Positions 2,051-54,366 of a stretch of DNA of 64,000 bases are shown here, piece after piece. Position 1 is the stretch's first letter. Every line of letters begins with the position of its first letter. The stretch covers positions 38,286,619 through 38,350,618 of the forward strand of contig OX031071.1 in assembly GCA_943736015.1 (NCBI GenBank). The letters run 5' to 3'. The notes under the pieces were generated by a model. The model saw only the letters and a program-made list of their open reading frames with translations. It was not told the DNA's origin and ran no database searches. Made by a program: the position numbers and the translations under genes. This stretch comes from Tridacna crocea (lineage: Eukaryota; Mollusca; Bivalvia; Cardiida; Cardiidae).

Positions 2051-2278
2051 TTATCCCATTACCACACAAATGTTACTTTTGACGACCCTTAAAAAGAAGC
2101 ATCTAGAAAAATTTGTGAGAAAAGGACAAAATGCTGGTAACCAGCATTTTCTCCTTTTTCCACAATGTTTTCTACCCTTCACAACACAAATTTCAAAGTT
2201 ACAGAACTTTCATTTTGTCATCTGCAAATACTTTCAATTTGAACAAGCCTAAAACTTTGTTGTTTGATAACGAGTTAA
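2051..2278 (-). mobile_element. TTAA-MITE copy, reverse orientation
   Basis: Terminus TTATCCCATTACCACACAAA on the left and a degenerate TTGTTTGATAACGAGTTAA on the right. The central GGACAAAATGCTGGTAACCA hairpin is preserved. The length of 228 bp is typical for the family. Confidence 0.85.
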
Positions 2279-3643: not shown

Positions 3644-4890
3644 AACAAGAGCGGCAAATTGTCGCATGATACGCCCGTCTTACCCTAAGTTGTTAAGCTG
3701 GGGCATGCACCGGACAAAATTCAAGTATGAAACACGACAAAGGACAATAACTCAAAAATAAGCGAGCAAGAGTTATGATTCCTGTGCTCTGCACTCCCCC
3801 TTGACGAGACCTATCCATCCATGAAATTTCATAACCCTAGCTAGTATAGTTTTGGAGATACGCTCCGGACAAAATTCAAGTATGAAAAACAACAAAGGGC
3901 AATAACTCAAAAATTACGGGAGCAGGAGTTATGATTCCTATGCACTGCACTCTTCCTTGATGAGATCTATCCACCCATGAAATTTCATAACCCTAGCTAG
4001 TATAGTTTTGGAGATATTCACCGGACCAAATTCAAGTATTAAAAACGACAAAGGGCAATAACTCAAAAATTAAGCGAGCAAGAGTTATGATTCCTGTGCA
4101 CTGCACTCCCCCTTGGTGAGATCTATCCAGCCATGAAATTTCATAACCCTAGCTAGTACAGTTTTGGATATACGCTCCGGACAAAATTCAAGTATGAAAA
4201 ACGACAAAGGGCAATAACTCAAAAATTAAGCAAGCAAGAGTTATAATTCATGTGCACTGCACTCCCCTTTGGTGAGATCTATCCACCCATGAAATTTCAT
4301 AACCCTAGCTAGTATAGTTTTGGAGATATGCTCCGGACAAAATTCAAGTATAAAAAACAACAAAGGGCAATAATTCAAAAATTAAGCGAGCAAGAGTTAT
4401 GATTCCTGTCTATTGCACTCCCACTTGATGAAAATTATCCACCCATGAAATTTCATAACCCTAGCTAGTATAGTTTTGGAGATATGCTCCGGACAAATTT
4501 CAAGTATGAAAAAGAGATTTGTCCAGAATCATCAAAGGGCCATAATTCCATGAAACCTAAATAAACCATAACCAAAATAAGATATGCACATCTCTGCTTA
4601 ATACTGAGTCTATTTGTGTAGTTTGAACCAACTCTGTCCAATAGTTGATGAGAAAAAGAGCGGACAAGAAATTTCATGAAAGGGCCTAACTCAGTGAAAA
4701 ATCAATGAACCATAACCAACATTTCATATGCACATTTCTGCTTAATACTGAGTTTACCTGTGAAGTTTGAATAAAATTCGTCAAGTAGTTTATGAGAAAT
4801 AGAGCGGACGAAAAGCTACAGACCGACGGACGGACCGACCAACAAGCTGACTCCTATATATCCCCCAAACAGAGTTTTGGGGGGTATAAT
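3644..4890 (+). mobile_element. Pearl-type element with 156-bp tandem core
   Basis: Head AACAAGAGCGGCAAATTGTC carries a short hairpin. CGGACAAAATTCAAGTAT starts units at 3711, 3866, 4022, 4178, 4334 and 4490, a regular 155-156 bp period. A diverged unit follows, then an ACGGACGGACC tail near 4830 and the closing hairpin CCCCCAAAC...TTTTGGGGGG followed by TATAAT. Head, tandem core, ACGG microsatellite and tail match the published description of bivalve pearl elements, which are now grouped with Helentron-associated elements. Confidence 0.8.
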
Positions 4891-10262: not shown

Positions 10263-10488
10263 TTAATCTTTACTACACAATCCTGACAATAAAAGATCCT
10301 GAAAAAATGGCATTTTGAAAACATTCTGGGGAAAGGAGAAAATGCCGGTGACTAGCATTTTCTCCTTTTTCCCAATGTTTTTCACCCTTTCCAAACAAAT
10401 TTCAATTTTTCATTTACATTCATTTTGTTGTCTGCACATGCTTTCAATTTGAACCAGTTTAACATTTTGTCGTTTGGTAAAGACTTAA
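10263..10488 (-). mobile_element. TTAA-MITE copy, reverse orientation
   Basis: Starts TTAATCTTTACTACACAATC and ends TTGTCGTTTGGTAAAGACTTAA-like. The hairpin GGAGAAAATGCCGGTGACTA is slightly mismatched at its centre. Confidence 0.85.
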
Positions 10489-11593: not shown

Positions 11594-11822
11594 TTAACCC
11601 TTTACCACACGAGAAAATTCTAGACTGGTCCAAATTGAAAGCATTTGCAGACGAAAAAATAAAGGTGACTGAAAAATAGAAATTTGTTCTGGAAAGGGTA
11701 GAAAACACTGTGGGAAAAGGAGAAAATGCTGGTTACCAGCATTTTCTCCTTTTCCCACAGTGTTTTCAAAAGGCTTCTTTCTCAGGGGCGTCAAAAGTAG
11801 GGATTGAGTGGTAATGGGTTAA
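11594..11822 (+). mobile_element. TTAA-MITE, well-preserved reference copy
   Basis: TTAACCCTTTACCACACGAG at the left and TTGAGTGGTAATGGGTTAA at the right, 229 bp in all. Central arms GAAAACACTGTGGGAAAAGG and its complement pair perfectly for about 33 nt around GGTTACC. This is one of the cleanest copies for defining the family. Confidence 0.93.
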
Positions 11823-12553: not shown

Positions 12554-12764
12554 AAATCCCTGCTTTTGATGCCCCTGTGAAAGAAGCCTCTTGAAAACAC
12601 TGTGGGAAAAGGAGAAAATGCTGGTAACCAGCATTTTCTCCTGTTTCCAGTGTTTTCTACCCTTCCCAGAACAAATTTTAATTTCTCAGTCACCTTTATT
12701 TTGTTGTCTGCAAATGCTTTCAAGTTGAACAAGTCTAAAATTTTGTTGTGTGGTAAAAAGTTAA
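12554..12764 (-). mobile_element. TTAA-MITE copy, reverse orientation
   Basis: Begins within AAATCCCTGCTTTTGATGCC (extreme left end lost) and ends TTGTGTGGTAAAAAGTTAA. It has a strong central GGAGAAAATGCTGGTAACCA hairpin. Confidence 0.88.
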
Positions 12765-14121: not shown

Positions 14122-14599
14122 TCTAACCCTTTACCAAATGACAAAATTTTAGACTGGTTCAAATTGAAAGCACTAGCAGACAACAAAATAAACATAACTC
14201 AAAAATTTAAATTTGTTTCCAGACGGGTAGAAAACATTGTGGAAAAAGGAGAAAATGCTGGTTACCAGCATTTTCTCCTTATCCCACAATGATTTCAAAG
14301 CAGACAACAAAATAAACATAACTCAAAAATTTAAATTTATTTCCAGAATGGTAGAAAACATTGTGGGAAAAGGAGAAAATGCTGGTTACCAGCATTTTCT
14401 CCTTATCCCACAATGATTTCAAAGCAGACAACAAAATAAACATAACTCAAAAATTTAAATTTATTTCCAGAAGGGTAGAAAACATTGTGGAAAAAGGAGA
14501 AAATGATGGTTACTAGCATTTTCTCCTTATCCCACAATGATTTCAAAAGGCTTCTATCTTAGGGTTATAAAAACCAGGGATTGATTGGTAAAGGGTTAA
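14122..14599 (+). mobile_element. TTAA-MITE with internally triplicated hairpin
   Basis: Termini CTAACCCTTTACCAAATGAC and TTGATTGGTAAAGGGTTAA enclose three direct copies of a 124-bp block starting GCAGACAACAAAATAAACAT at 14176, 14300 and 14424. Each block contains its own complete central hairpin. The element is therefore 478 bp instead of about 230. Confidence 0.9.
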
Positions 14600-14683: not shown

Positions 14684-14914
14684 TTAACCCATTTCCAGAT
14701 GACAAAATTTTAGACTGGTCCAAATTGAGGCAAATTGCAGACAACATTAAAGTGCATCTAAAATGAAAAATATGTGTGATATAGCGTAGAAAACATTGTG
14801 AGAAAAGGAGAAATTGCTTGTTACAAGCAATTCCTCCTTTTCTCACAATGTTTTCCACAGCTATATATCTTTCTTTAGTGTGTCAAAATGTGGCATTATG
14901 TGGTAATGGGTTAA
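14684..14914 (+). mobile_element. TTAA-MITE copy, AAATTGC hairpin variant
   Basis: TTAACCCATTTCCAGATGAC to TTATGTGGTAATGGGTTAA, 231 bp. Central arms AGAAAACATTGTGAGAAAAG and GGAGAAATTGCTTGTTACAA pair with their partners. Confidence 0.9.
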
Positions 14915-15312: not shown

Positions 15313-15541
15313 CAACTCTTTACCACATAATCCGGACTTTTAATGACCCTGAAAAAGAAACCTTTTGAAAACATTGTGAGTAAAGAATAAAAAGACTGGT
15401 AACCTGCATTTTATCCTTTTCCCATAATATTTTCTACCCATCCCAAAAGGAATTTCAGTTTCTAAGTTATACTTATTCTATCGTCTGCAAGTGCTCTCAA
15501 TTTGGACCAGTCTTAAAAATTGTCATGTGGTAAACGGTTAA
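15313..15541 (-). mobile_element. TTAA-MITE copy, reverse orientation
   Basis: CAACTCTTTACCACATAATC to TTGTCATGTGGTAAACGGTTAA-like end. Its last TTAA (15538-15541) is also the first TTAA of the next copy. Confidence 0.82.
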
Positions 15542-15765
15542 CCCATTACCGAACAACAATATTTTAGACCGGTCCAAATTGAAAGCATTTGCAAATGACA
15601 AAATAAAAGTGACTGAAATTTAAAATTTGTTTTGTGAAGGGTAGAAAACATTGTGGGAAAAGGAGAAAATGCTGGTTACCAGCATTTTCTCATTTTCCCA
15701 AGATGTTTTCTAAAGGCTTCTTTCTCAGGGGTGTCAAAATTAGGGATTGTGTGGTAATGGGTTAA
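15538..15765 (+). mobile_element. TTAA-MITE copy (first of duplicated pair)
   Basis: TTAACCCATTACCGAACAAC to TTGTGTGGTAATGGGTTAA, 228 bp. Central GGAGAAAATGCTGGTTACCA hairpin intact. Confidence 0.93.
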
Positions 15766-15786
15766 TTGAACTGCTTTGGTAAACGG

Positions 15787-16014
15787 TTAACCCATTACCG
15801 AACAACAATATTTTAGACTGGTCCAAATTGAAAGCATTTGCAAATGACAAAATAAAAGTGACTGAAATTTAAAATTTGTTTTGTGAAGGGTAGAAAACAT
15901 TGTGGGAAAAGGAGAAAATGCTGGTTACCAGCATTTTCTCATTTTCCCAAGATGTTTTCTAAAGGCTTCTTTCTCAGGGGTGTCAAAATTAGGGATTGTG
16001 TGGTAATGGGTTAA
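15787..16014 (+). mobile_element. TTAA-MITE copy (second of duplicated pair)
   Basis: Almost identical to the copy at 15538 and displaced by 249 bp. It arose by local duplication rather than independent insertion. Confidence 0.93.
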
Positions 16015-16315
16015 TTGAACTGCTTCTAAACATAATGCAATGTACATGTATATAAATGACCCGTCATCTGTAAAGTAACCTTCTCTGAAGTGCAAAAAGT
16101 GTTGACCCTGGTCAGAATGTTCAAAGTGCATTGTTTGCAAATAGCATGGCAAAGTTTAGTAATGATATGTGTGGTTTACTTGGTTTTTTTACTTGGAACA
16201 TATTTTCACTATCAAAAAGAAAAATAATTGAAAAAAAAAAATATAAAGCCAGGAATATGTAATTGCATTTTTGCTTTTTTACTTAGAATTTTTATCCACC
16301 TTTCAAATTTGACAT

Positions 16316-19764: not shown

Positions 19765-20305
19765 GGTATTTATACGACTTAAAACTTAACTGGTATTGAG
19801 ATTGATATGAAAAAATAATACAAATCATCAATAATTAAGAATCACAAAATGACAAAGAAAAAATTTTTTTGATGGTGTTCCCTTAAAAGGCTATGTAGCC
19901 TCTTAACCCATTACCACACAATCCCTTCTTTTGACAACCCTGAGAAAGAAGCCTATACAGAAAACATTGTGAGAAAAGGAGAAAATGCTGGTAACCAGTA
20001 TTTTCTCCTTTTCATACGATGTTTTCTACTCTTCACAAAACAAATTTCAGTCACTTTTATTTTGTCGTCTGCAAATGCTTTCAATTTGGACAAGCCTAAA
20101 ATATTGTCGTTTGGTAATTAGTTAAAGTATTTTTAGATTTCAAGAAAGCATTGTGGGAATGTCAAAAGACTAGCATGTGACTGGTGACGCTTAAATTCAA
20201 TAACATAACAAGCATGTAATTATTTTCCATAATCATAATGTCTTATGTTTATTTCAAAGCTTCCTTTGCGTAATTCCAGTATGTAAATGAGCGAGTTGCT
20301 CATGT
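19765..20305 (+). repeat. Dispersed 0.54-kb repeat, copy 2 (first part, MITE inside)
   Basis: Same landmarks as copy 1, interrupted by a MITE at 19903-20125 and then by a pearl-type element from 20306. It resumes at 21283 and runs to about 21355 (GTAGTAAATCTCTAATTTCT). Confidence 0.75.
19903..20125 (-). mobile_element. TTAA-MITE nested in dispersed repeat copy 2
   Basis: TTAACCCATTACCACACAAT to TTGTCGTTTGGTAATTAGTTAA-like end, 223 bp. Flanking host sequence GGCTATGTAGCCTC and AGTATTTTTAGATTTC is continuous in copy 1 around TTTA, so the insertion at a TTAA-like target is directly visible. Confidence 0.92.
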
Positions 20306-24212: not shown

Positions 24213-25182
24213 CACCTGACAATTTTTGAAAAGGGACACATAAGGGACATCTCTGTGAAATCATTTCAAAATCTGACCAACCATTTCAGTGAAGAAGAAT
24301 TTTCAAGAATTTCTTCATGTCCGAATAGTGCAAGTGGACCCCATTTACCAGAGCCATGCTTCTTGATGGATCAGAATTTCGAAAACATTTTTGAAAATGG
24401 TCACCCAAGGAAGATTGCTTTGAAATTATTTTAAAATCTGATCATGGGTTTCAGAGAAGGTGAATTTTCAAGAAATTCTTCATTTCCATATTGTAGCCCC
24501 AATTCACCTGAGCCATGTTTCTTGGCAAATCAAAATTTCGCGAACAAGTTTTTAAAAGGGTCACCCAAGGAACATCTCTGTGAACTTTTTTCAATATCTG
24601 ATCAGCCGTTTCAGAGAAGTATGAATATTCAAGAATTTCTGCATGTCCATATAAGTACAAGTAGCCCCCATTCACCAGAGCCATGTTTCTTGATGGATTG
24701 AAATTTCGCAAACAATTTTTGAAAAGGGTCACCCATAGAACAACCCTGAGAAATTATTTCAAAATCTGACCAGTGGTTTCTGAGAAGAAGAATTTTTTAG
24801 AATTTCTTCATTCCTGATTGCAAATAGCCCCCATTCACCAGAGTCATGTTTCTTGACTGATCAAAATTTCACGAAAAAGTTTTGGAAAGGGTCACTTAAT
24901 CTGGCCAGCTGTTTCAGAGAAGAAGATTTTTAAAGAATTTCTTAGAAAACTGTTTGGTTGCCATGGCAACCAAAACTTTTGACGTAATCAAATTCTGTGA
25001 ACAATTTTCAAAGAGGACCTCCCAAGGAACATTCCAGCCAAGTTTGGTCCATATTGGCCCAGCGGTTTTGGAGGAGTTGATGTTTAAAGAATTGTTGATG
25101 ACGCATGACGGATGACAGACACCAGGTGATCCTAAAAGCTTCCCTTGAGCATGTTGTGCTCAGGTTAGCTGAAAAAACAGTC
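24213..25182 (+). mobile_element. Pearl/Helentron-like element (CACCAGAGCCATG tandem core)
   Basis: About 155-bp units with CCCCCATTCACCAGAGCCAT, GATCAAAATTTCG and AAAAGGGTCACCCAAGGAAC boxes. The 3' domain has GGTTGCCATGGCAACC (24957-24972) and AACATTCCAGCCAAGTTTGG, and ends in CTTGAGCATGTTGTGCTCAG. The closest relative here is 47126-48640. Confidence 0.72.
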
Positions 25183-25293: not shown

Positions 25294-25514
25294 TTAACTC
25301 ATTACCAGACCAGCCCAATTTTAGGCTTGTCCAAATTGAAAGCATTTGCAGATGACAAAATAAAAGTGACAGAAAATTTGAAATTTGTTTTGTGAAGGTT
25401 AGAAAAAATTGTGGGAAAAGGAGAAAATGCATTTTTTTCCCTTTTCCCACAATGTGTTCTAAAGGCTTCTTTCTCAGGGTAGTCAAAATTAGGGATTGTG
25501 TGGTAATGGGTTAA
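25294..25514 (+). mobile_element. TTAA-MITE copy
   Basis: TTAACTCATTACCAGACCAG to TTGTGTGGTAATGGGTTAA, 221 bp. The loop-proximal hairpin is altered to AATGCATTTTTTTCCC. Confidence 0.88.
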
Positions 25515-33039: not shown

Positions 33040-34188
33040 CAAAGTTACAAATTTTGTGAATTGCTCTTATCCACAAGGTGTTCTATCTGTCTTTGAAGGT
33101 CCCAGATCATATCTTTTATATTTTAGAAATTATGGCCTAGACGAAAATTCAAAGTTAAAATGGCAATAACTCAGAAGGAAGGATGGCAGAGTTATGGTTC
33201 TTGTGCAATGCACTTCTTCATAATGTGTTCTATTAGTCTTTGAAGTTTCAAGATGATGGATTTTGAAGTTTGGAAGTTATGGTCTTCACAAAAATTCAAA
33301 CTGAAAGTTAACTAAGGGCAAAAACTCAAAAAATAAAAGTGGCAGAGTTATGGTTCATGTGCAATGCACTTCTCCATAATAAGTTCTATCAGTGTACACA
33401 CGAAGTTCCAAGTTAATAGCTTTTACAGTTTGGAAGTTATGGCCTGAACAAAAATTCAAAGTGAAAATTAACAAAGGGCAATAACTCAAAAAATAAAAGT
33501 GGCAGAGTTATGGTTCATGTGCAATGCACTTTTCCATAATGTGTTCTATCAGTGTATGTAGTTTCAAGTTGATACCTTTTACAGTTTGGAAGTTATGGCC
33601 TGAACAAAAATTCAAAGTGAAAATTAACAAAGGGCAATAACTTAAAAAAATAAAAGTGGCAGAGTTATAGTTTATGTGCACTGCACTTCTCCATAATGAG
33701 TTCTATCAGTGTATGAAGTTCCAAGTTGATAGCTTTTATATTTTAGAAGTTATGGCCTGGACAAAAATTCAAACTGAAAATTAACAAAGGGCAATAACTC
33801 AAAAATTAAAAGTGGCTGAGTTATGGTTCATGTGCACTGCACTTCTCCATAATGTGTTCTATCAGTGAATGCAGTTTCAAGTTGATACCTTTCATAGTAT
33901 GGAAGTTATAGCCTGAACAAAAATTCAAAGTGAAAAGTTGGTTATTCCAGAAATCAGGGGCAGATAATTTTAGAACGCAAACAGCGATCCAAATTCTAAG
34001 ACCCAGGTGCACAACTAGGCATCATGGAGATTCATTGTGGCACGTTTCAAATAATTCCGATGGAAACTGTAGGAGTTGCACACACAAGAAATTGCTAACA
34101 GTCGGACGGATGGACGGACTGACAGACGGACGACGGAAACCAAGCGGTGACATAAGCTCTGCTGGCTGAAAGCCAGTAGAGCTTAAAA
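33040..34188 (+). mobile_element. Pearl-type element, 157-bp tandem core, ACGG tail
   Basis: Units carrying GGCAGAGTTATGGTTC recur near 33187, 33344, 33500, 33658 and 33817. The tail GTCGGACGGATGGACGGACT follows near 34101, and a closing hairpin GCTCTGCTGGCTGAAAGCCA lies near 34157. The head is missing or diverged. It is the same subfamily as 49313-50884 and the solo head at 8087. Confidence 0.75.
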
Positions 34189-34487: not shown

Positions 34488-34722
34488 TTAACCCTTTACA
34501 ACACGACAACATTTTAGACCTGTCCAAATTGAAAGCATTTGCAGACAACACATTCATAGTGGCCCAAATGATACACATGTTCATTAATCGGTCAGAAAAC
34601 TTTGTGGGAAAAGGAAAGGAAAAAAAGCTTGTTACCAGCATTTTCTCCTTTTTTCCACAATGTTTTCAAAAGACTTATTTCTCAGGGTCGTTAAAATTCA
34701 GGAATGTGTAGTAAAGGGTTAA
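34488..34722 (+). mobile_element. TTAA-MITE copy
   Basis: TTAACCCTTTACAACACGAC to ATGTGTAGTAAAGGGTTAA, 235 bp. The hairpin has a small insertion in one arm (AAAAGGAAAGGAAAAAAAGC). Confidence 0.88.
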
Positions 34723-34825: not shown

Positions 34826-35056
34826 TTAACCCATTACCAAACAACAATGTTTTAGACTGGTCCAAATTGAAAGCATTTGCAGACGACAAAATAAAGGTGA
34901 TTGAAAAATTGAAATTTGTTCCGGAAAGGGTAGAAAACACTGTGGGAAAAGGAGAAAATGCTGGTTACCAGCATTTTCTCCTTTTCTCACAGTGTTTTCA
35001 AAAGGCTTCTTTCTCAGGGGCGTCAAAAGTAGGGATTGTGTGGTAATGGGTTTTAA
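34826..35056 (+). mobile_element. TTAA-MITE, well-preserved copy
   Basis: TTAACCCATTACCAAACAAC to TTGTGTGGTAATGGG followed by TTTTAA, 227-231 bp. Central hairpin essentially perfect. Confidence 0.92.
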
Positions 35057-35707: not shown

Positions 35708-37459
35708 CTACTGTAGTTGATAAACTGACAAAACATTTCCTTTAGATATACTAACATGGCTGATATAAAGTTTGTTTTCTGTTTCACAATATGTCACTAA
35801 ATGTGGACCTTCCATTCCTTGTGTTTGATCCAGTAATATTTGTATGGGTCTACACTGTGTAGATATCTGGTGTATGTTGTCTGAGTGACGTCCAGCTATA
35901 TAAATATTATCATATCTATCTACAGTCAAACCACGTGGAGACTTCAGGTTAGTATCTCTGTAAACATTTTGAACTTTACCCTTGAAATCCACACTTGTCA
36001 CAGTGTTTGTCGTACAGTCACTAACAAATAGTGTAGACTTGGAATTACTAAGACAAATATAGTCTGGGCATTTAAACAGAGGTTGTCCGTTTTGGTCTGT
36101 AGAAAATATTTTCAATATTTTTCCATGTAGACTGATTAATTTAACAGCAGATTTTGGTTCATCAAATGACACAAATAATTGATTATCATTAAAAATAATT
36201 CCTCTACAGGCTCCATTAACTTGAAGTTCTTTGTTTACAGTCAAAGTCGATCCAACATTTACAAAAACTAATTCATTGTAACATGTAATGACAAGCTGAC
36301 TTTTATCAATACAAGTAACATCCCATGGTTGTGTGGAAAGTTCTAGATAAGATAGAATACTGTTACTGTCAACATTTACAAGTTTTACACTGAAGTTGTG
36401 ACAATCTGTTAGAACTATTCTGTATGGATCTATCATTACACTACCTGTAATAAAACAGTCATATTCATCTTGTGAATGTTTAACATTGATTTGTCCTACA
36501 TAACTGGCTCTAACAGATTTGGGATCTTTGTTGACCAGCTTTACATTTTCTTTCTCCTTTCTCTCCATTTTTGTTTTTCCTCCCTCCTTCTCTCTATCCA
36601 CTAATGTACCAAGATTGCACAAAGATTGAAGTAAATGTAGCATTTCCTCATTTTTGTGAAAATGATAATTTCCAATTTTGTTTTGACAGGATATGTCCGC
36701 CATTTTGTGTTCTAAGTTAGAAATCAGGGTTTCAGCTTTCTTTGCAGAGATCACCAACTGTCGCTGTTGTTTGTATTGTTTATGTTTGTCTAAGTTAGAG
36801 ACAATTTCATTGATGTCTGTGGTCATTGTATCACACGTTGTAGACACAGTTTGAGCAGCTTTTGTATCAAACTCCTTCACATCCTGGGCTTCCTTCAAAA
36901 TGGTTGTTTCCATGGAATCTAGAAGTTTGTTGATTTCTGCACGAAATGATTTCACATCCGATATAAACTGGGTGTGCACTGTTTGTAAATCTTGGTTGTG
37001 TCTTGTGGAAGTTTTCTTTATATATTTTAACTGCTGTAGAAGACTTGTTATTTTCTCTGTTAAAGATATGTAATCTGGACTTGCATCAAAGTCTTGCGCA
37101 ATGTCGTCTATGTATTCTATAGAACAAGTTTTGTGTTCAACAGTCAAACAAACACCGCAAAAAAAGTTTTTATGCATTTTACAATAGTACTCCAATATTT
37201 TTCCTTTGTGTAAAGAACAGACATTTTCTTCTGTTGAGACAAGTTTTTGTTGCGGCATTTCATCTCCATTTAAAAATTTGTGATTTCTTGATAACTTTGA
37301 CATCCTATGTACCGAACAACAATTATTACAGAAAAATTCGTCACAGTCCACACAATAATGTTTAGCATTTATATTTTTGTTCAATAGTAAACAAGGATCA
37401 CATTGAACACCTGTTGTTGTGTTGGCACTCCCTGTCTGATTTCGCCCAGACACTTCCAT
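35708..37459 (-). CDS. RING-less B-box / coiled-coil / NHL-like beta-propeller protein (TRIM-related)
   Basis: A single uninterrupted 583-codon exon, the only convincing intact gene in the window. Residues 20-60 form a first B-box (Cys20, Cys23, Cys36, Cys39, Cys44, Cys47, His51, His60). Residues 81-112 form a second (Cys81, His84, Cys93, His96, Cys101, Cys104, His109, Cys112). About 125-275 is helical and rich in Lys, Glu, Gln and Leu, consistent with a coiled coil. A charged KEGGKTKMERKEKE linker (about 295-310) precedes about 240 residues of strand-rich repeats with PWDVTCID, PDYICLSN and PRGLTVDRYDNIYIAG segments, typical of a six-bladed NHL-type propeller. There is no RING at the N-terminus, so direct ubiquitin-ligase activity is not expected. 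Bivalve genomes carry many such genes, often discussed as innate-immune or RNA-binding regulators; that role is inference. The coding exon is preceded by a splice acceptor at 37483. Confidence 0.9.
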   Translation of the reverse strand: MEVSGRNQTGSANTTTGVQCDPCLLLNKNINAKHYCVDCDEFFCNNCCSVHRMSKLSRNHKFLNGDEMPQQKLVSTEENVCSLHKGKILEYYCKMHKNFFCGVCLTVEHKTCSIEYIDDIAQDFDASPDYISLTEKITSLLQQLKYIKKTSTRHNQDLQTVHTQFISDVKSFRAEINKLLDSMETTILKEAQDVKEFDTKAAQTVSTTCDTMTTDINEIVSNLDKHKQYKQQRQLVISAKKAETLISNLEHKMADISCQNKIGNYHFHKNEEMLHLLQSLCNLGTLVDREKEGGKTKMERKEKENVKLVNKDPKSVRASYVGQINVKHSQDEYDCFITGSVMIDPYRIVLTDCHNFSVKLVNVDSNSILSYLELSTQPWDVTCIDKSQLVITCYNELVFVNVGSTLTVNKELQVNGACRGIIFNDNQLFVSFDEPKSAVKLISLHGKILKIFSTDQNGQPLFKCPDYICLSNSKSTLFVSDCTTNTVTSVDFKGKVQNVYRDTNLKSPRGLTVDRYDNIYIAGRHSDNIHQISTQCRPIQILLDQTQGMEGPHLVTYCETENKLYISHVSISKGNVLSVYQLQ

Positions 37460-37500
37460 AATGCCAGGTGCAAGGTGTCAGTCTACAAATAGAAAAGAAA
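37460..37500 (-). other. 5' untranslated leader and splice acceptor of the B-box gene
   Basis: On the minus strand, GTTTCTTTTCTATTTGTAG ends at 37483, a strong pyrimidine tract with AG. It is followed by 23 nt of leader before the ATG. This implies an upstream non-coding exon, which I could not locate with confidence. Confidence 0.6.
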
Positions 37501-37962: not shown

Positions 37963-38377
37963 TTAACTTTTTACCATAAAGTCCTGTGTTCTCATGTCCT
38001 AAAGAAAAACACTTTTGAAAACATTGCAGGAAAATGAGAAAATGCTCTTAACCCTTTATCCCATAAGGCATTTCTATGGTATCTCTAATTGACCCTAAAT
38101 AACATCAAGGATGAAGCCGTTTTTTATGGGTAATGTAAAAAATATATAAATACAAGCAATTTCACCTTTTGCCACAATGTTTTCAAAAGGCTCCTACAAG
38201 CAATGTGTAGAAATAAGTATCTATGGAGTAAAGGGTTAACAATCAATTTCTTCTTTTCGTTCAACATTCTCTACCCGTACAAAGACAAATTTTACAATGT
38301 TATCCAAATTCAAGTTATTTGCCACTAGTGCTTTCAAACTGGACAAGTCTAAATTTTGTAATTTAGTACAATGTTAA
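37963..38377 (-). mobile_element. TTAA-MITE interrupted by a second MITE
   Basis: TTAACTTTTTACCATAAAGT at the left and TTGTAATTTAGTACAATGTTAA-like right end. The element is split at the loop of its own hairpin (AAAATGCTC) by the 192-bp element at 38048-38239 and resumes with CAATCAATTTCTTC. Confidence 0.8.
38048..38239 (+). mobile_element. Second TTAA-MITE subfamily, nested copy
   Basis: TTAACCCTTTATCCCATAAG to GTATCTATGGAGTAAAGGGTTAA-like end, with internal TCTCTAATTGACCCTAAATA. The same subfamily lies at 54021-54249 in the opposite orientation. TTAA is present at both ends. Confidence 0.85.
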
Positions 38378-38580
38378 CTCTTTACCAATCAGTAAAATTT
38401 TAGACTTGTCCAAACTGAAAGCATTTGCAAACGACAAAATAAATGCGACTCAAACATTGAAATTTAACTTTAGAAGAGTATAAAACATTGCTGCCATTAT
38501 TTTCTCCTTTTCTCACAGTGTTTCCAAAAGGCTTCTACCGATGGGTCGTAAAAACGGGGGAACGTGTGGTAAAATGTTAA
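38374..38580 (+). mobile_element. TTAA-MITE copy abutting the preceding one
   Basis: TTAACTCTTTACCAATCAGT to ACGTGTGGTAAAATGTTAA. The left arm of the hairpin is partly deleted. Its first TTAA is also the last TTAA of the element ending at 38377. Confidence 0.8.
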
Positions 38581-45286: not shown

Positions 45287-46406
45287 ATGGCGAGAATGAC
45301 ACTCGAACAACGAGAGAGGGCCATAGGAATGTTGACGGCAGGAGCCTCCATAAGACAGGTACGTCATCATAGCCAATATTTTTTACAAAATCGATGAAAG
45401 AAAAATTTAAACTGAGTGCAATAGAATTATCAAATTATGCAACCGTAATTTCGTTTAATTTCAGGTTGCTAGAACATTAAACAGGGCATTTTCAACAATT
45501 CAAGCACTGTGGAGAAAATTTACTGTGACCGGAAGTGTACGGGATCTTGTTCGTCGGCCATGGCGAAAGATTACAACACGACGCGAGGACAGATTCATTG
45601 TCGTGTCCCACCCGCGTAACCGTTTTACGTTCCCTGCACTTACTGCTCGGAACATTATCGGCCTTCACAACCGCCCAGTATCATCGTCAACGGTACGCAA
45701 TCGTCTAAAAGACGCTGGATTGAAAGCATACAGGCCGTGTAAGGTACCTAAATTATCGAATCGACACAGACATAACCGCCTTACTTGGGCACGTCAACAT
45801 TTACGTTTTACAAGGGCAGACTGGGCCAATGTTTAATTCACAGATGAAACCAGAATACGTCTTCGTGATGCCGACGGCCGTCAACGTGTGTATCGCCGTA
45901 GGGGAGAGCGTCACGCATAAAACTGTGTCAGGGAAACAGAACTATTCGCTGGAGGATCTGTTATGGTCTTGGGAGGTGTATCATTACATATAAAGACACC
46001 ACCTGTCATCATTAGAGGAAATCTTACAGCTAGAAAATACCAGGACGATGTAATTGTTCCAGCAATCATACCACATATCAGAGCAAACCGTTTTATGTCA
46101 CTGGCTCAAGACAATGCACAATGTCACAACGCAAGAGCTACTCAGGCTTTGCTGGCAGCGCATCATGTCCGACTTGTCCCTTTTCCAGCACGAAGTCCGG
46201 ACCTAAACCCTATTGAACACATCTGGGACTTGTTGAAAAGAAGAGTTCGGGCTCTTCCTCAGCCAGTAAATTTGGGCGCCCTTGAGCAGTTAATTATCAA
46301 TGTTTGGAATGGGGTACGTCAACAAGAAATCCAGCCATTTATTGCATCAATGAGAAGCAGGTATCGAGCTGTCATAAATGCTAACGGTGGACACACGAAC
46401 TACTAG
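45287..46406 (+). pseudogene. Tc1-like DD34E transposase with intron-like gap and two stops
   Basis: The protein would bind the element's ends through two helix-turn-helix units and cut and paste the DNA with a DDE site. ATG 45287 starts MARMTLEQRERAIGMLTAGA; the frame reaches 45358, is interrupted by 106 nt (GTACGT...TTTCAG) and resumes at 45465 in phase 0 with VARTLNRAFSTIQALWRKF. A second helix-turn-helix (SSTVRNRLKDAGLKAYRPC) follows. The catalytic residues are visible: first Asp in FTDE just after a TAA at 45834, second Asp in LAQDN, Glu in SPDLNPIEHIWD with 34 residues between. A second TAA lies at 45918. Both stops are point changes in one continuous frame, so the copy died recently. 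The gap falls inside the first helix-turn-helix and has good splice consensus; most Tc1 genes lack introns. Confidence 0.9.
45359..45464 (+). other. Intron-like 106-nt interruption of the Tc1 transposase
   Basis: GTACGT at the start, TTTAATTTCAG at the end, AT-rich, phase 0. It separates ...GASIRQ from VARTLN..., contiguous residues in related transposases. Confidence 0.75.
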
Positions 46407-47125: not shown

Positions 47126-48640
47126 AACAAGAGGGCCAAGATGGCCCTGGATCGCTCACCTGAATTTCTGGGAGAACCATAGCCATTTCTTTCAAAATGT
47201 AATCAACCATTTCAGAGAAGTAGAATTTATGAGAATGTCTTCATGTCTGTATAGTTTAAATAGCCCACAGCCATCAGAGCCATGTCTCTTGATGGATCAA
47301 CATTTCTAGAGCAATTTTTGAGAAGGGTTAGCCAAGAAACATTTCTGTGAAAAAATTTCAAAATCTGATCAGCCGTCTCAGAGAAAAATAATTTCTTCAT
47401 GGCCAAATTGTGCAAGTAGCCCCCATTCACCAGAGCCATGTGTCTAGATAAATCAGCATTTTGCGAACAATTTTTGAAAAGGGTTACCAAAGGAACATTT
47501 CTTTGAGATTATTAAAAAATCTGATCAGCCGTTTCAGAGAAAAAGAATTTTTAAGAATTTCTTTATGGCCAAATAGTGCAAGAAGTCCCCATTCACCAGA
47601 GCCATGTTTCTTGATGCATCAAAATTACATAAACAATTTTTAAAAAGGGTCATTGAAGGAACATTTCTGTGAAATTATTTCAAAATATGACTGACGGTTT
47701 CAAATGAGAAGAATTTTTAAGAATTTATTTATTTCCCTATAGTGCAAGTAGCCCCCATTCACCAGAGCCGTATTTCTTGACTGATCAAAATTTCGCGAAC
47801 ACCTTTTGGAAAGGGTAATCCAAGGAACATCTTCGTGAAATTATTTCAAATTCTGACCAGCGGTTTCAGAGAAGAAGAATTTTTAAGAATTTCTTAATTT
47901 CCGTATAGTGCAAGAAGCCCCCATTCACCAGAGCCATGCTTCTTGACGGATCAAAATTTCGCGAACAGTTTTGAAAAGGGTCACACAAGGAACAGATCTG
48001 TGAAATTATTTCAAAATCTGACCAGCGGTTTCAGAGAAGAAGAATTTTTAAGAATTTCTGCATTTCTGTATAGTGCAAGTAGCCCCCATTCACTAGAGCC
48101 ATGTTTCTTGACGGATCAAAATTTCACGAACAATTTTTGAAAAAGGTCACCCAAGTAACAATCCTGTGAAATTATTTCAAAATCTGAACAGCGGTTTCAG
48201 AGAAGAAGAATTTTTAAGAACTTCATTTCTATATGGTGCAAGAAGCCCCCATTCACCAGAGCCTTTTTTTTTTTTTTACGGTTCAAAATTGTACGAACAA
48301 TTTTTGAAAAGGGTCACCCAAGGAATATCTCTGTGAAATTATTTCAAAATCTGACCAGCGGTTTCAGAGGTGAAGATTTTTAAAGAATTCCCTAGAAAAT
48401 CCCATTTGGTTGCCATGGCAACCAGAGTTTTTGATGGAATCAAATTCTGTGAACAGTTTTTAAAGAGGACCTCCCAAGGAACATTCCAGCCAAGTTTGGT
48501 CTAAATCGGCCCAGCGGTTTAGGAGGAGGTGATGCTTAAAGAATTGTTGACGACGCACGACGCACTGACGCACGACGGATGACGGGCACCGGGTGATCCT
48601 AAAAGCTCCTCTTGAGCAGGTTGTGCTCAGGTGAGCTAAA
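47126..48640 (+). mobile_element. Complete pearl/Helentron-like element
   Basis: Starts AACAAG with hairpin AGGGCCAAGATGGCCCT, then GATCGCTCACCTGA. About eight units of about 155 bp follow (CACCAGAGCCATGTTTCTTG and AAAAGGGTCACCCAAGGAAC). The 3' domain has GGTTGCCATGGCAACC, GACGACGCACGACG and the terminal CTTGAGCAGGTTGTGCTCAG then GTGAGCTAAAA. The sub-terminal GCTCACCTGA at the head and TCAGGTGAGC at the tail are exact complements. No coding sequence. The last 1.5 units and the 3' domain closely match 24213-25182. Confidence 0.85.
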
Positions 48641-48743: not shown

Positions 48744-48980
48744 AAATGAACTCGTTACCAGACGACAAAATTTTAGGTTTGTCCAAATCAAAAACATTTT
48801 CTGACAAAAAAAAAAATAAAAGTGACTGAAAATTTGATTATTTTTTTGCAGGATAGAAAACATTGTGGGAAAGGGAGAAAATGCTGATTTTTCTCAGCAT
48901 GTTCTCCTTTTCTCACAATGTTTTCTAAAGGCTTCTTTCTCAGGGTCGTCAAAAGTAATGATTGTGTGGTAATGGGTTAA
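48744..48980 (+). mobile_element. TTAA-MITE copy
   Basis: Left end AATGAACTCGTTACCAGACG (TTAA mutated), right end TTGTGTGGTAATGGGTTAA. The hairpin is slightly altered at the loop (GCTGATTTTTCTCAGC). Confidence 0.88.
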
Positions 48981-49312: not shown

Positions 49313-50884
49313 TATACGCCCGAAGGGTCGTACTATGTTATACCCCCGGTCGTCCGTTCGTCCGTCTGTCTGTCCGTCCGCCCGTCCGTCCGTTAGCAAT
49401 TTCTTGTGTACGCAACTCCTCCTACAGTTTTCATCCGAATTATTTGAAACTTGCCACAATAAATCTCCATGATGTCTACTTGTACACCTGACTCTTAGAA
49501 TTTGGATCGCTGCTTGCGTTCTAAAATCATCTGCCCTTGATTTCTGAAATAACCAACTTTTCACTTTGAATTTTTGTTCATGCCATAACTTCGATATCAC
49601 AAAAGGCATCAACTTGAAACTACATACACTAATAGAACACATTATGGAGAAGTGCAGTGCACATGAACCATAACTCTGCCACCTTTATTTCTGAGTTATT
49701 GCCCTTTAATAATTTTCAGTTTGAATTTCTGTCCAGACGATTACTTCCAAACCATAAAAGCTAATAACTTGGAACTACATACACTGATAGAACACATTAT
49801 GGAGAAGTGCAGTGCACATGAACCATAACTCTGCCACCTTTTTTTTTTTAGTTATTGCCATTTGTTAATTTTCATTTTGAATTTTGTGACCGCCCAGATG
49901 GCTCAGTGGTGAGCATGTCGGACTCATGACCTGGTGGTTGCGAGTTTGATACCCGGTTGAGGCGAACTTTCTTTCCGGCGTATTCTCGCCTCTTACCTCT
50001 GCTGAAGCATGTGAGAAAAGTAGTCGGTGGCTTTGGAAAGAAAGTTGTGTTAGTACCGGTGTGAGAAAGCCAGGAAACACATGTGCGTCACCGACCGCCA
50101 TGATATGACCTTAGCTGTTAAAATGGCGTTAAACCCCAATACAACCAACCAACAATTTTGAACTTTTGTAAATCCCATAACTTCCAAACTATAAAAGCTA
50201 TTAATTTGGAACTTCATACACTGATAAAACACATTATGGAGAAAAGCAGTGCACAACAATCATAACTCCGCTGCTCTTAATTTTTGAGTTATTGCCCTTT
50301 GTTAATTTTCAGTTTGAATTTTTGTGCAGGCCATAACTTCCAAACTATAAAAGCTATTAACTTGGAACTTCTTACATTGATTGAACACATTATGGAGAAG
50401 TGCACTGCACATGAACCATAACTATGCCATCTTTATTTTTTGACTTTTTGCCCTTTGTTAATTTTCAGTTTGAATTTTTGTAAAGATCATAACCTCCAAA
50501 CTTTAAAATCCATCAACTTGAAACTTCAAAGACTAGTAGAACACATTATGAAGAAGTGCATTGCACAAGAACCATAACTGCCATCCTTCCTTTTGAATTA
50601 TTGCCCTTTGTTAGTTTTCACTTTGAATTTCCGTCTGGGCCATAATTTCTAAAATGTAAAAGCTATGATCTTGAACCTTCAAAGACAGATAGAACATCTT
50701 GTGAATAAGAGCAATTCACAAAATTTTAAATGTGTCACCCTTATTGTTTTAGTTGTTGCCCTTTAATATTTTTCACATATCATGGACAATAACTACTCTT
50801 CATTCATGGCCGATCCGTCATATCAACTCATTTCACTGACAAGCCCTTTCGGGCGTATATACGCCGCTCTGCAAAGCTCTTGTG
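49313..50884 (-). mobile_element. Complete pearl-type element, reversed, containing a SINE
   Basis: Low-coordinate end TATACGCCCGAAGGG and high-coordinate end CCCTTTCGGGCGTATA are near-complements. On the minus strand it starts AAGAGCTTTGCAGAGCGG at 50884 and ends in an ACGGACGG tail (49355-49395) with CCGGGGGTATAACATAGTAC. About 157-bp units (AACCATAACTCTGCC, GAACACATTATGGAGAAGTG) fill the core. A SINE at 49887-50153 interrupts one unit. Confidence 0.83.
49887..50153 (+). mobile_element. tRNA-derived SINE, sister of the copy at 30661
   Basis: Head CAGATGGCTCAGTGGTGAGC (box A) and TTGCGAGTTTGATACCC (box B), body GAAGCATGTGAGAAAAGTAG, tail GTTAAACCCCAATACAACCA. AATTTTG flanks both sides (49880, 50154), a short target duplication from the host unit. 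Confidence 0.85.
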
Positions 50885-53632: not shown

Positions 53633-54366
53633 CCTTAAGGTGGTCCTTCAGATTTTGGGACAAAATTTTTACAAAAATAAAAAAAAAAAATAATCTTTAT
53701 ACTCCCAAAGCGTTATAATTTTCATCAATAAAACCCCAGTAGTCGAAAACCATCTGACAACAAGAGAAATTAAAGATTTACTACAGCCCAAGTCTACGCC
53801 GACGGGAAACACGGTCTATATTTTTACATGAGCAACTTGCTCATTTACATACTGGAAATACACAGTCAAAGCTTCAAACATAGTGTCCGAAGAAGACAAT
53901 ATGGAAAATAATTACATGGTTGTTATGTTATGTAATTTAAGCGTCATTAGTCACGTGCCAGTCACTTCGCATTCCCACAATTCTTCTTCTTTTTTTTTTG
54001 GCGCGAAATCTAAAAATAGCTTAAGCCTTTACTCCATAGATACTCATTTCTACGCATTGCTTGTAGGAGCCTTTGGAAAACATTGTGGCAAAAGGTGAAA
54101 TTGCTCGTGAAGAGCAATTTCACCTCTTGTCACAATGTTTTCTATACTATCAAAAGGTGTCATATACGCATGAGAAACTGCTTCATCATTGCTGTTATTT
54201 AGGGTCAATTAGAGATACAATAGAAATGCCTCATGGGGTAACGGGTTAAGGGGCTACTTAGCCTTTTAAGGGAATATACCCCCCAAAAAACCTTCTTTTT
54301 TTTGTAATATTAGGATTCTTAATTCTTGATGACTTGTATCGTTTTGCATATACATTTCAGTGATAT
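53633..54366 (-). repeat. Dispersed 0.54-kb repeat, copy 3 (reversed, MITE inside)
   Basis: Begins AAGGTGGTCCTTCAGATTTT, the complement of copy 1's end. It carries all landmarks of copies 1 and 2 and is interrupted at 54021-54249 by a MITE of the second subfamily. Confidence 0.8.
54021..54249 (-). mobile_element. Second TTAA-MITE subfamily, nested in repeat copy 3
   Basis: TTAAGCCTTTACTCCATAGA to CATGGGGTAACGGGTTAA. Hairpin arms GAAAACATTGTGGCAAAAGG and GTGAAATTGCTC pair with their partners around GTGAA. Host sequence AAAAATAGC and GGGGCTACTTAGCC lies on either side. It occupies the same TTAA as the first-subfamily MITE in copy 2. Confidence 0.9.

Follow-up and report, generated by a model that had tools for sequence, protein, structure and literature searches.

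It has long been asked how cut-and-paste MITEs multiply to huge copy numbers. A short hairpin element at positions 11594..11822 of the window (the whole 64-kb stretch of Tridacna crocea DNA analyzed here, part of contig C16 in a genome of 31 contigs and 1.049 Gb) raises the question in a specific form: what mobilizes this element, how common is it, and why does it carry a nearly perfect palindrome at its center?

Structure and target site of the element

The reported copy is 229 bp long, begins with TTAACCC and ends with GGGTTAA, giving TTAA followed by CCC, within the CCC/CCY pattern, at each end. TTAA ends with inverted termini of about 20 bp, and a near-perfect central inverted repeat with arms of about 33 nt, had been predicted for this locus, and both descriptions stand. 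By eye, 16 of 19 bases agree between the inverted termini, and the palindrome at 11701-11767 (67 nt, 33+1+33) matches its own reverse complement at 98.5% over 67 positions, with the center base as the sole mismatch. Folded as RNA, the element reaches -89.5 kcal/mol, with a z of -9.25 relative to 200 shuffled sequences. In the 90-copy consensus the long end begins with TTAACTC and the short end with TTAACCC, and conservation across 91 full copies is 0.918 in the core, 0.83 in the inner flanks and 0.86 and 0.90 in the terminal 20 bp. The parts of the reported copy and its relatives in the window, which were placed by alignment unless another basis is given, are as follows.

11594..11822, + strand: reported MITE copy, family A, long end at the left (229 bp, 93.9% to the consensus)
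11594..11700, + strand: long arm, TTAA to palindrome, 107 bp (sequence and family alignment)
11701..11767, no strand: central palindrome, 33+1+33 nt (self-match, RNA fold)
11768..11822, - strand: short arm, 55 bp, whose consensus read inwards matches an autonomous piggyBac 5' end
34826..35052, + strand: family A copy (93.4%)
15538..15765, + strand: family A copy, first of a 249-bp tandem duplication, with TTAA 15538-15541 common to the 15314-15541 copy
15787..16014, + strand: family A copy, second of the 249-bp tandem duplication (15528-16025)
15314..15541, - strand: family A copy adjoining the 15538..15765 copy at the common terminal TTAA
25616..25843, - strand: family A copy (90.4%)
19903..20125, - strand: family A copy within another repeat, paralogues of which are without the MITE (filled/empty comparison)
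12555..12764, - strand: family A copy, one end unmatched
25294..25514, + strand: family A copy
2051..2278, - strand: family A copy
48749..48980, + strand: family A copy
10268..10488, - strand: family A copy
34488..34722, + strand: family A copy (79.7%)
38374..38580, + strand: diverged family A copy (74.7%)
14684..14914, + strand: diverged copy with symmetric core changes at 13, 26 and 31 plus one one-sided change
14124..14599, + strand: copy whose 124-bp inner part, including the palindrome, is in tandem triplicate, 14175-14547 (alignment, tandem-repeat scan)
54021..54249, - strand: family B copy, 55-67-107 layout, arms unlike those of A, symmetric core differences at 14, 21, 26 and 31 plus private one-sided changes
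38048..38239, + strand: family B copy, damaged

The window holds 14 near-full-length matches. At lengths from about 150 bp upward there are 24 alignments, 22 to family A and 2 to family B; the core islands number 35, and copies lie in both orientations. The reversed consensus gives 0 matches at the identical threshold, which excludes chance. An earlier estimate of about 30 copies in both orientations therefore holds when fragments are counted, whereas near-full copies come to only about half that number.

The window also contains short tandem arrays with units of about 155-168 bp (3705-4513, 24219-24895, 33055-33936, 47210-48389 and 49558-50696), a 589-aa open frame at 35708-37477 (- strand) that we take from its B-box and NHL-like look to be TRIM-type, and two open frames at 45459-46406 (+ strand), presumably a broken Tc1/mariner transposase.

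Filled and empty sites were compared for 73 full copies that have usable flanks and a TTAA at each end; the comparison returned at least 173 rows, many of them matches to other MITE copies. Several of the 73 have empty counterparts. The cleanest case is a MITE inserted in a piggyBac copy (L031:844-1070), for which nine sister copies are without the MITE: eight of them (L013-L019, L033) have a single TTAA and 96-98% identity across the joint over about 200 bp, and the ninth (L023) is 93.7% identical with an altered site. Two further insertions, L051:196-424 and 19903-20125 of the window, both lie within one other repeat family in which the TTAA is changed in some paralogues, and L004:1399-1649 also has an empty counterpart. 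The filled/empty pairs thus show TTAA duplication, with one exception, L033:3350-3578, whose sisters have TTTA instead of TTAA at the joint. By a crude extension, TTAA is intact at the start in 67 of 90 copies and at the end in 67 of 90.

Autonomous partners and genome-wide abundance

A PF13843 profile search of the genome gave 118 scored transposase matches, and 26 of the best 30 are without an internal stop. Several piggyBac elements have clean TTAACCC ends with differing inner sequence. One, AUTO1, is 7,203 bp long and is present as two copies 99.9% identical end to end (L059 and L060), with the final TTAA present in L060 and missing in L059; further AUTO1 loci are 96-99.9% alike over the parts compared. 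Its termini read TTAACCCATTACCG... and TTAACTCATTACCAC..., and its open frame of 492 aa has a full PF13843 match. Another, AUTO2, is 6,376 bp long including 11 unread bases and has an open frame of 508 aa. PF13843 covers the transposases of both AUTO1 and AUTO2 (E 2.8e-88 and 1.5e-89).

The short end of family A agrees with the 5' end of AUTO2 in 34 of 38 bases (E 3.5e-10), a score reached by 0 of 1,000 shuffles and by 0 of 200 when the first seven bases are fixed. It matches AUTO1 over 39 bp at 76.9%, with a score of 50 against a maximum of 33 in 500 shuffles. The subterminal unit in the MITE short arm occurs four times in AUTO2 at a spacing of about 35 bp and, by eye, is repeated in the AUTO1 5' end too. 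Alignment of the long arm to the AUTO2 3' end stops after about 21 bases, and its score is equaled by 47 of 1,000 shuffles, or by 0 of 200 shuffles that keep the first seven bases; beyond the terminal repeat, no homology of this second end to AUTO1 or AUTO2 was found. Since its long arm is like the autonomous ends in the terminal repeat alone, the MITE does not represent a simple internal deletion of either element. The core matches inside AUTO1 and AUTO2 resemble nested or decayed MITE copies, and therefore no native palindrome is recognized in them. Thus the autonomous elements have TTAA ends, TTAACYC termini and the short-arm subterminal unit in common with the MITE, but differ from it in their length (6.4-7.2 kb), their transposase open frame and the lack of a recognized native palindrome.

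Two smaller families described below were compared in the same manner. The family D short end matches the AUTO2 5' end with a score of 40 (0 of 200 shuffles), and the family B long end matches the AUTO2 3' end with a score of 33 (0 of 200 shuffles), the latter being one of 80 comparisons. No clear autonomous partner was found for the family B short end, for which the best score, 31, was reached by 3 of 200 shuffles.

The TTAA duplication, the 118 PF13843 matches and the two autonomous elements with MITE-like ends support the non-autonomous piggyBac reading of the original prediction, and AUTO2 (34/38) and AUTO1 (76.9%) are transposase-bearing elements with MITE-like ends, of the sort that it proposed to look for. 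In this search, which covered piggyBac transposases, no partner from a different TTAA superfamily came to light, the finding that would have refuted the prediction. As judged from these comparisons, the identity of the element as a piggyBac-derived MITE is firm. Elsewhere in the genome, clustered partial and mostly broken piggyBac DDE matches lie at C13:4.48-4.61 Mb and at C8:50.40-50.44 and 56.71-56.76 Mb; they are perhaps old arrays or domesticated genes.

Contigs C1-C18 (77 down to 40 Mb) sum, by hand, to nearly the whole genome, and abundance was measured in 20 fixed-position 5-kb stretches on 18 contigs (L039-L058), all 20 of which were used. The 90-copy consensus covers 20.5% of the 100 kb sampled (bootstrap 14-27%) with 51 near-full copies, and the reversed control gives 0 matches; by comparison, the window is 10.0% covered and has 14 near-full copies. 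Coverage per sample ranges from 1.6% to 46%. The spread of the estimate is wide: the first 10 samples, searched with the reported copy alone as query, gave 13.0% as against 20.5% overall. The MITE set occupies roughly a fifth of the genome and, at 229 bp, is a short element with a high copy number. Scaling from 51 per 100 kb would give, by extrapolation, about half a million near-full copies genome-wide. The 35-nt center of the palindrome, with the center base and pairs 21, 26 and 31 left free, occurs at 222,317 sites in the 1.05-Gb genome (control 0).

Four samples kept in the abundance figure (L045, L046, L047 and L057, on C6, C9, C12 and C17) are satellite arrays with 1.6-2.1-kb units. These units are related from one chromosome to another (79-93% over the longest alignments), are 99.9% alike inside L057, and each carry one family-A MITE copy. 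An Rfam search of the four samples gave no match.

Families with a common core, layout and arm symmetry

The samples and the window together hold 150 core islands, 41 of them without recognizable family-A arms and many of these apparently decayed. Some of the 41 make up family B, a cluster of nine copies, 229 bp long, whose arm lengths of 55 and 107 bp equal those of family A; many others were left unassigned. Identity between the A and B long arms, which are equal in length, is 0.495 (shuffled mean 0.484, maximum 0.57), compared with 0.866 for the core, so the internal region is more conserved than the arms between the two families. The short-arm interior is at 0.471 (shuffled mean 0.421) and the whole short arm at 0.636, above the shuffled maximum of 0.582; the ends of this arm are common to A and B, which marks the two families as related.

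Arm lengths were surveyed at 167 cores after the four satellite loci had been taken out; the commonest values are 55, in 64 of 102 arms in range, and 107, in 41 of 92. The short-arm distance from TTAA to core peaks at 55 in clusters 32, 33, 1, 27, 25 and 11. For the long arm, clusters 32, 1 and 27 have their peak at 107; cluster 25 does so weakly (2 of 5), and in cluster 33 the values 107 and 106 are tied. Cluster 11 (family D) has long-arm distances of 104 and 109 only, so that only its 55-bp side is clear. Families A and B and clusters 27 and 25 therefore have in common a 67-nt palindrome placed about 55 bp and 107 bp from the TTAAs, with family B resting on 9 copies and family D on 4. This set of families with one core, a 55-67-107 layout and symmetric arm changes is new over the original prediction.

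The B core differs from that of A at arm positions 14, 21, 26 and 31, and all four differences, each a G/C or A/T swap, are matched in the opposite arm; 7-9 of the 9 copies agree for each arm. In a family-A subgroup of 20 copies, both arms carry T>C at position 8. Family D (cluster 11, 4 copies) is symmetric at 8 and 26 and has C/T at 31 and G/A at 13 in its consensus. These symmetric states go back to few events: one arm-copying event could yield all four B changes, and therefore we claim no more than about three independent symmetric steps. We gave no weight to the symmetric T/T at position 31: in families B and D, C31 is part of a CpG, so parallel decay could mimic symmetry there. Clusters 21 and 4, with asymmetric cores, were not counted as families because they are old insertions multiplied inside AUTO1 copies. 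Cluster 19, whose copies form a local tandem array, carries one-sided changes, and a single position is asymmetric in 2 of 5 copies of cluster 14 and in 1 of 3 copies of cluster 30. Among 100 matches listed for the 35-nt center, by our own count 93 show symmetry at all three free pairs (13 of them non-A types) and 7 are one-sided or unlike; genome-wide there are 9,352 ATC/ATC centers versus 9 chimeric A/ATC centers.

Changes in single copies follow a different pattern. Outside the diagnostic positions, identical double changes number 14 versus 9.5 in a stratified permutation (p 0.08), and double changes of any kind 29 versus 21.4 permuted (p 0.038). G28A is found in both arms 122 times genome-wide. 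As an unpaired control, sites that combine G28A in one arm with G31A in the opposite arm number 176 for two layouts together, or 88 per layout; with G28A in either arm at about 5,480 sites, the paired excess is about 34. Doubles among the matches listed are 3 of 97 sites at position 31 and 4 of 96 at position 28. In-place arm correction is thus small, though probably not nil, and post-insertion correction was rejected as the main force behind symmetry in resident copies. Family-level differences in the palindrome are symmetric, whereas the changes in resident copies are mostly one-sided, the arms decaying almost independently. Because resident arms drift apart and correction is small, the symmetry is set in multiplying lineages, either by selection for a working palindrome or by copying-linked repair.

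At the center of the family A palindrome, 15 of 136 copies have A for T, against a mean of 2.25 and a maximum of 7 at other T sites, and for seven of the 15 the nearest relative also has A. Such an excess is the pattern expected from arm-to-arm strand switching or inversion.

Proposed role of the palindrome, and related systems

The joint reading that we favor, and consider probable on the sequence comparisons made here, is that these elements are a non-autonomous piggyBac MITE set mobilized by the AUTO1/AUTO2 lineage, with the palindrome acting in cis as a distance-bound DNA structure. A transposase of this lineage would recognize the terminal repeat together with one subterminal unit in the short arm and would cut and paste the MITEs at TTAA. 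The palindrome, whether as two protein sites in inverted orientation or as a hairpin that extrudes, would have to sit at a fixed distance from both ends for efficient mobilization or copy-number gain, and copies with matching palindrome arms would found new families. Taken by itself, the view that the palindrome is a cis-acting module under constraint, with its spacing fixed, is likely to be correct. We propose only tentatively, as a possibility that falls short of our expectation, that it may further be a portable, structure-dependent amplification module, such that families swap or erode arms and termini and multiply only with a matched palindrome 55/107 bp from the cleavage sites. It might then serve the piggyBac transpososome as a hairpin, cruciform or dimer site, or prime replicative gain by folding back, while turnover of arms and terminal repeats would perhaps also change the transposase partner. 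If true, this would account for the spread of a cut-and-paste element over a fifth of the genome.

The main rival to a cis-acting palindrome is template-switch repair during copying, by which a strand would switch template between the arms at replication or gap repair and new families would inherit symmetric changes mechanically, without any function. Template switching is reported to homogenize inverted-repeat arms and to invert spacers (PMC8604942), and it would fit the excess of A at the center base (15/136 versus 2.25) and the small excess of paired G28A doubles (122 versus 88 expected). However, correction is rare in resident copies (an excess of about 34 among about 5,480; 14 versus 9.5, p 0.08), and both the common 55/107 spacing and the conserved core sequence beside fully diverged arms are left unaccounted for, so we regard this explanation as somewhat unlikely. 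Common descent alone, with core and spacing inherited and the arms diverging by chance without net indels or constraint, agrees with the relationship of A and B through their short-arm ends (0.636 versus a shuffled maximum of 0.582), but we judge it improbable in view of long arms that are equal in length yet at random identity, beside a core at 0.866, and of the symmetric core changes.

A role of the hairpin as RNA, with transcribed copies giving small RNAs for which pairing is kept, appears quite improbable. RNA helices typically change by G-U-bridged transitions, whereas the four B differences are G/C or A/T swaps; moreover, an Rfam search of the window gave no match, and the gain to the element is unclear. 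These points stand against the stability of the fold (-89.5 kcal/mol, z -9.25). Kolobok and Sola3 are also TTAA-using superfamilies with TTAA duplication, so the duplication would be equally expected had one of them mobilized the elements. We nevertheless consider this highly improbable, since, in a search that covered piggyBac transposases, the MITE termini are homologous to those of two piggyBac elements and a CC[C/T]T start is given as a piggyBac hallmark (PMC2872659). For the RNA reading there is a precedent in human microRNAs derived from MITEs, hsa-mir-548 (PMC1784062).

Under the favored reading of a piggyBac MITE set with a cis-acting palindrome, the nearest described system is that of the CMITE families of Acropora corals (PMC2872659). 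According to the accessible part of that report, these are likewise TTAA-flanked, CCC-starting and piggyBac-related, their internal region is better conserved between families than the terminal repeats, they form tandem arrays (compare the triplication at 14175-14547 and the duplication at 15528-16025 of the window), and their homology to the piggyBac element AmiPB1 is confined to the ends. They differ in length (about 100 bp, with 75 bases of core) and in copy number (about 1,600), as against 229 bp, a 55-67-107 layout and about a fifth of the genome here, and they are set apart by description in that the same part of the report mentions no palindrome or symmetric covariation (PMC2872659).

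A literature search covering sources other than subscription journals and Repbase found no account of this family or of a palindrome-cored piggyBac MITE of such abundance. The T2-MITEs of Xenopus have TTAA duplications and termini other than those of this MITE, and unlike it belong with a Kolobok transposase. They resemble it in forming a very long-lived family (PMC6004289). BogoMITE of Blepharisma is similarly described as the most abundant repeat of its genome with few autonomous partners, but is of Pogo/Tigger origin and has about 8,000 copies (PMC9942856). The present case unites extreme copy number, autonomous partners with open frames and one structure conserved in shape, sequence and position across families. 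DNA/Unknown is reported to make up 34.9% of the T. crocea genome sequence, and the MITE family may bear on this large unclassified DNA-element fraction of the giant-clam genome (PMC10858879).
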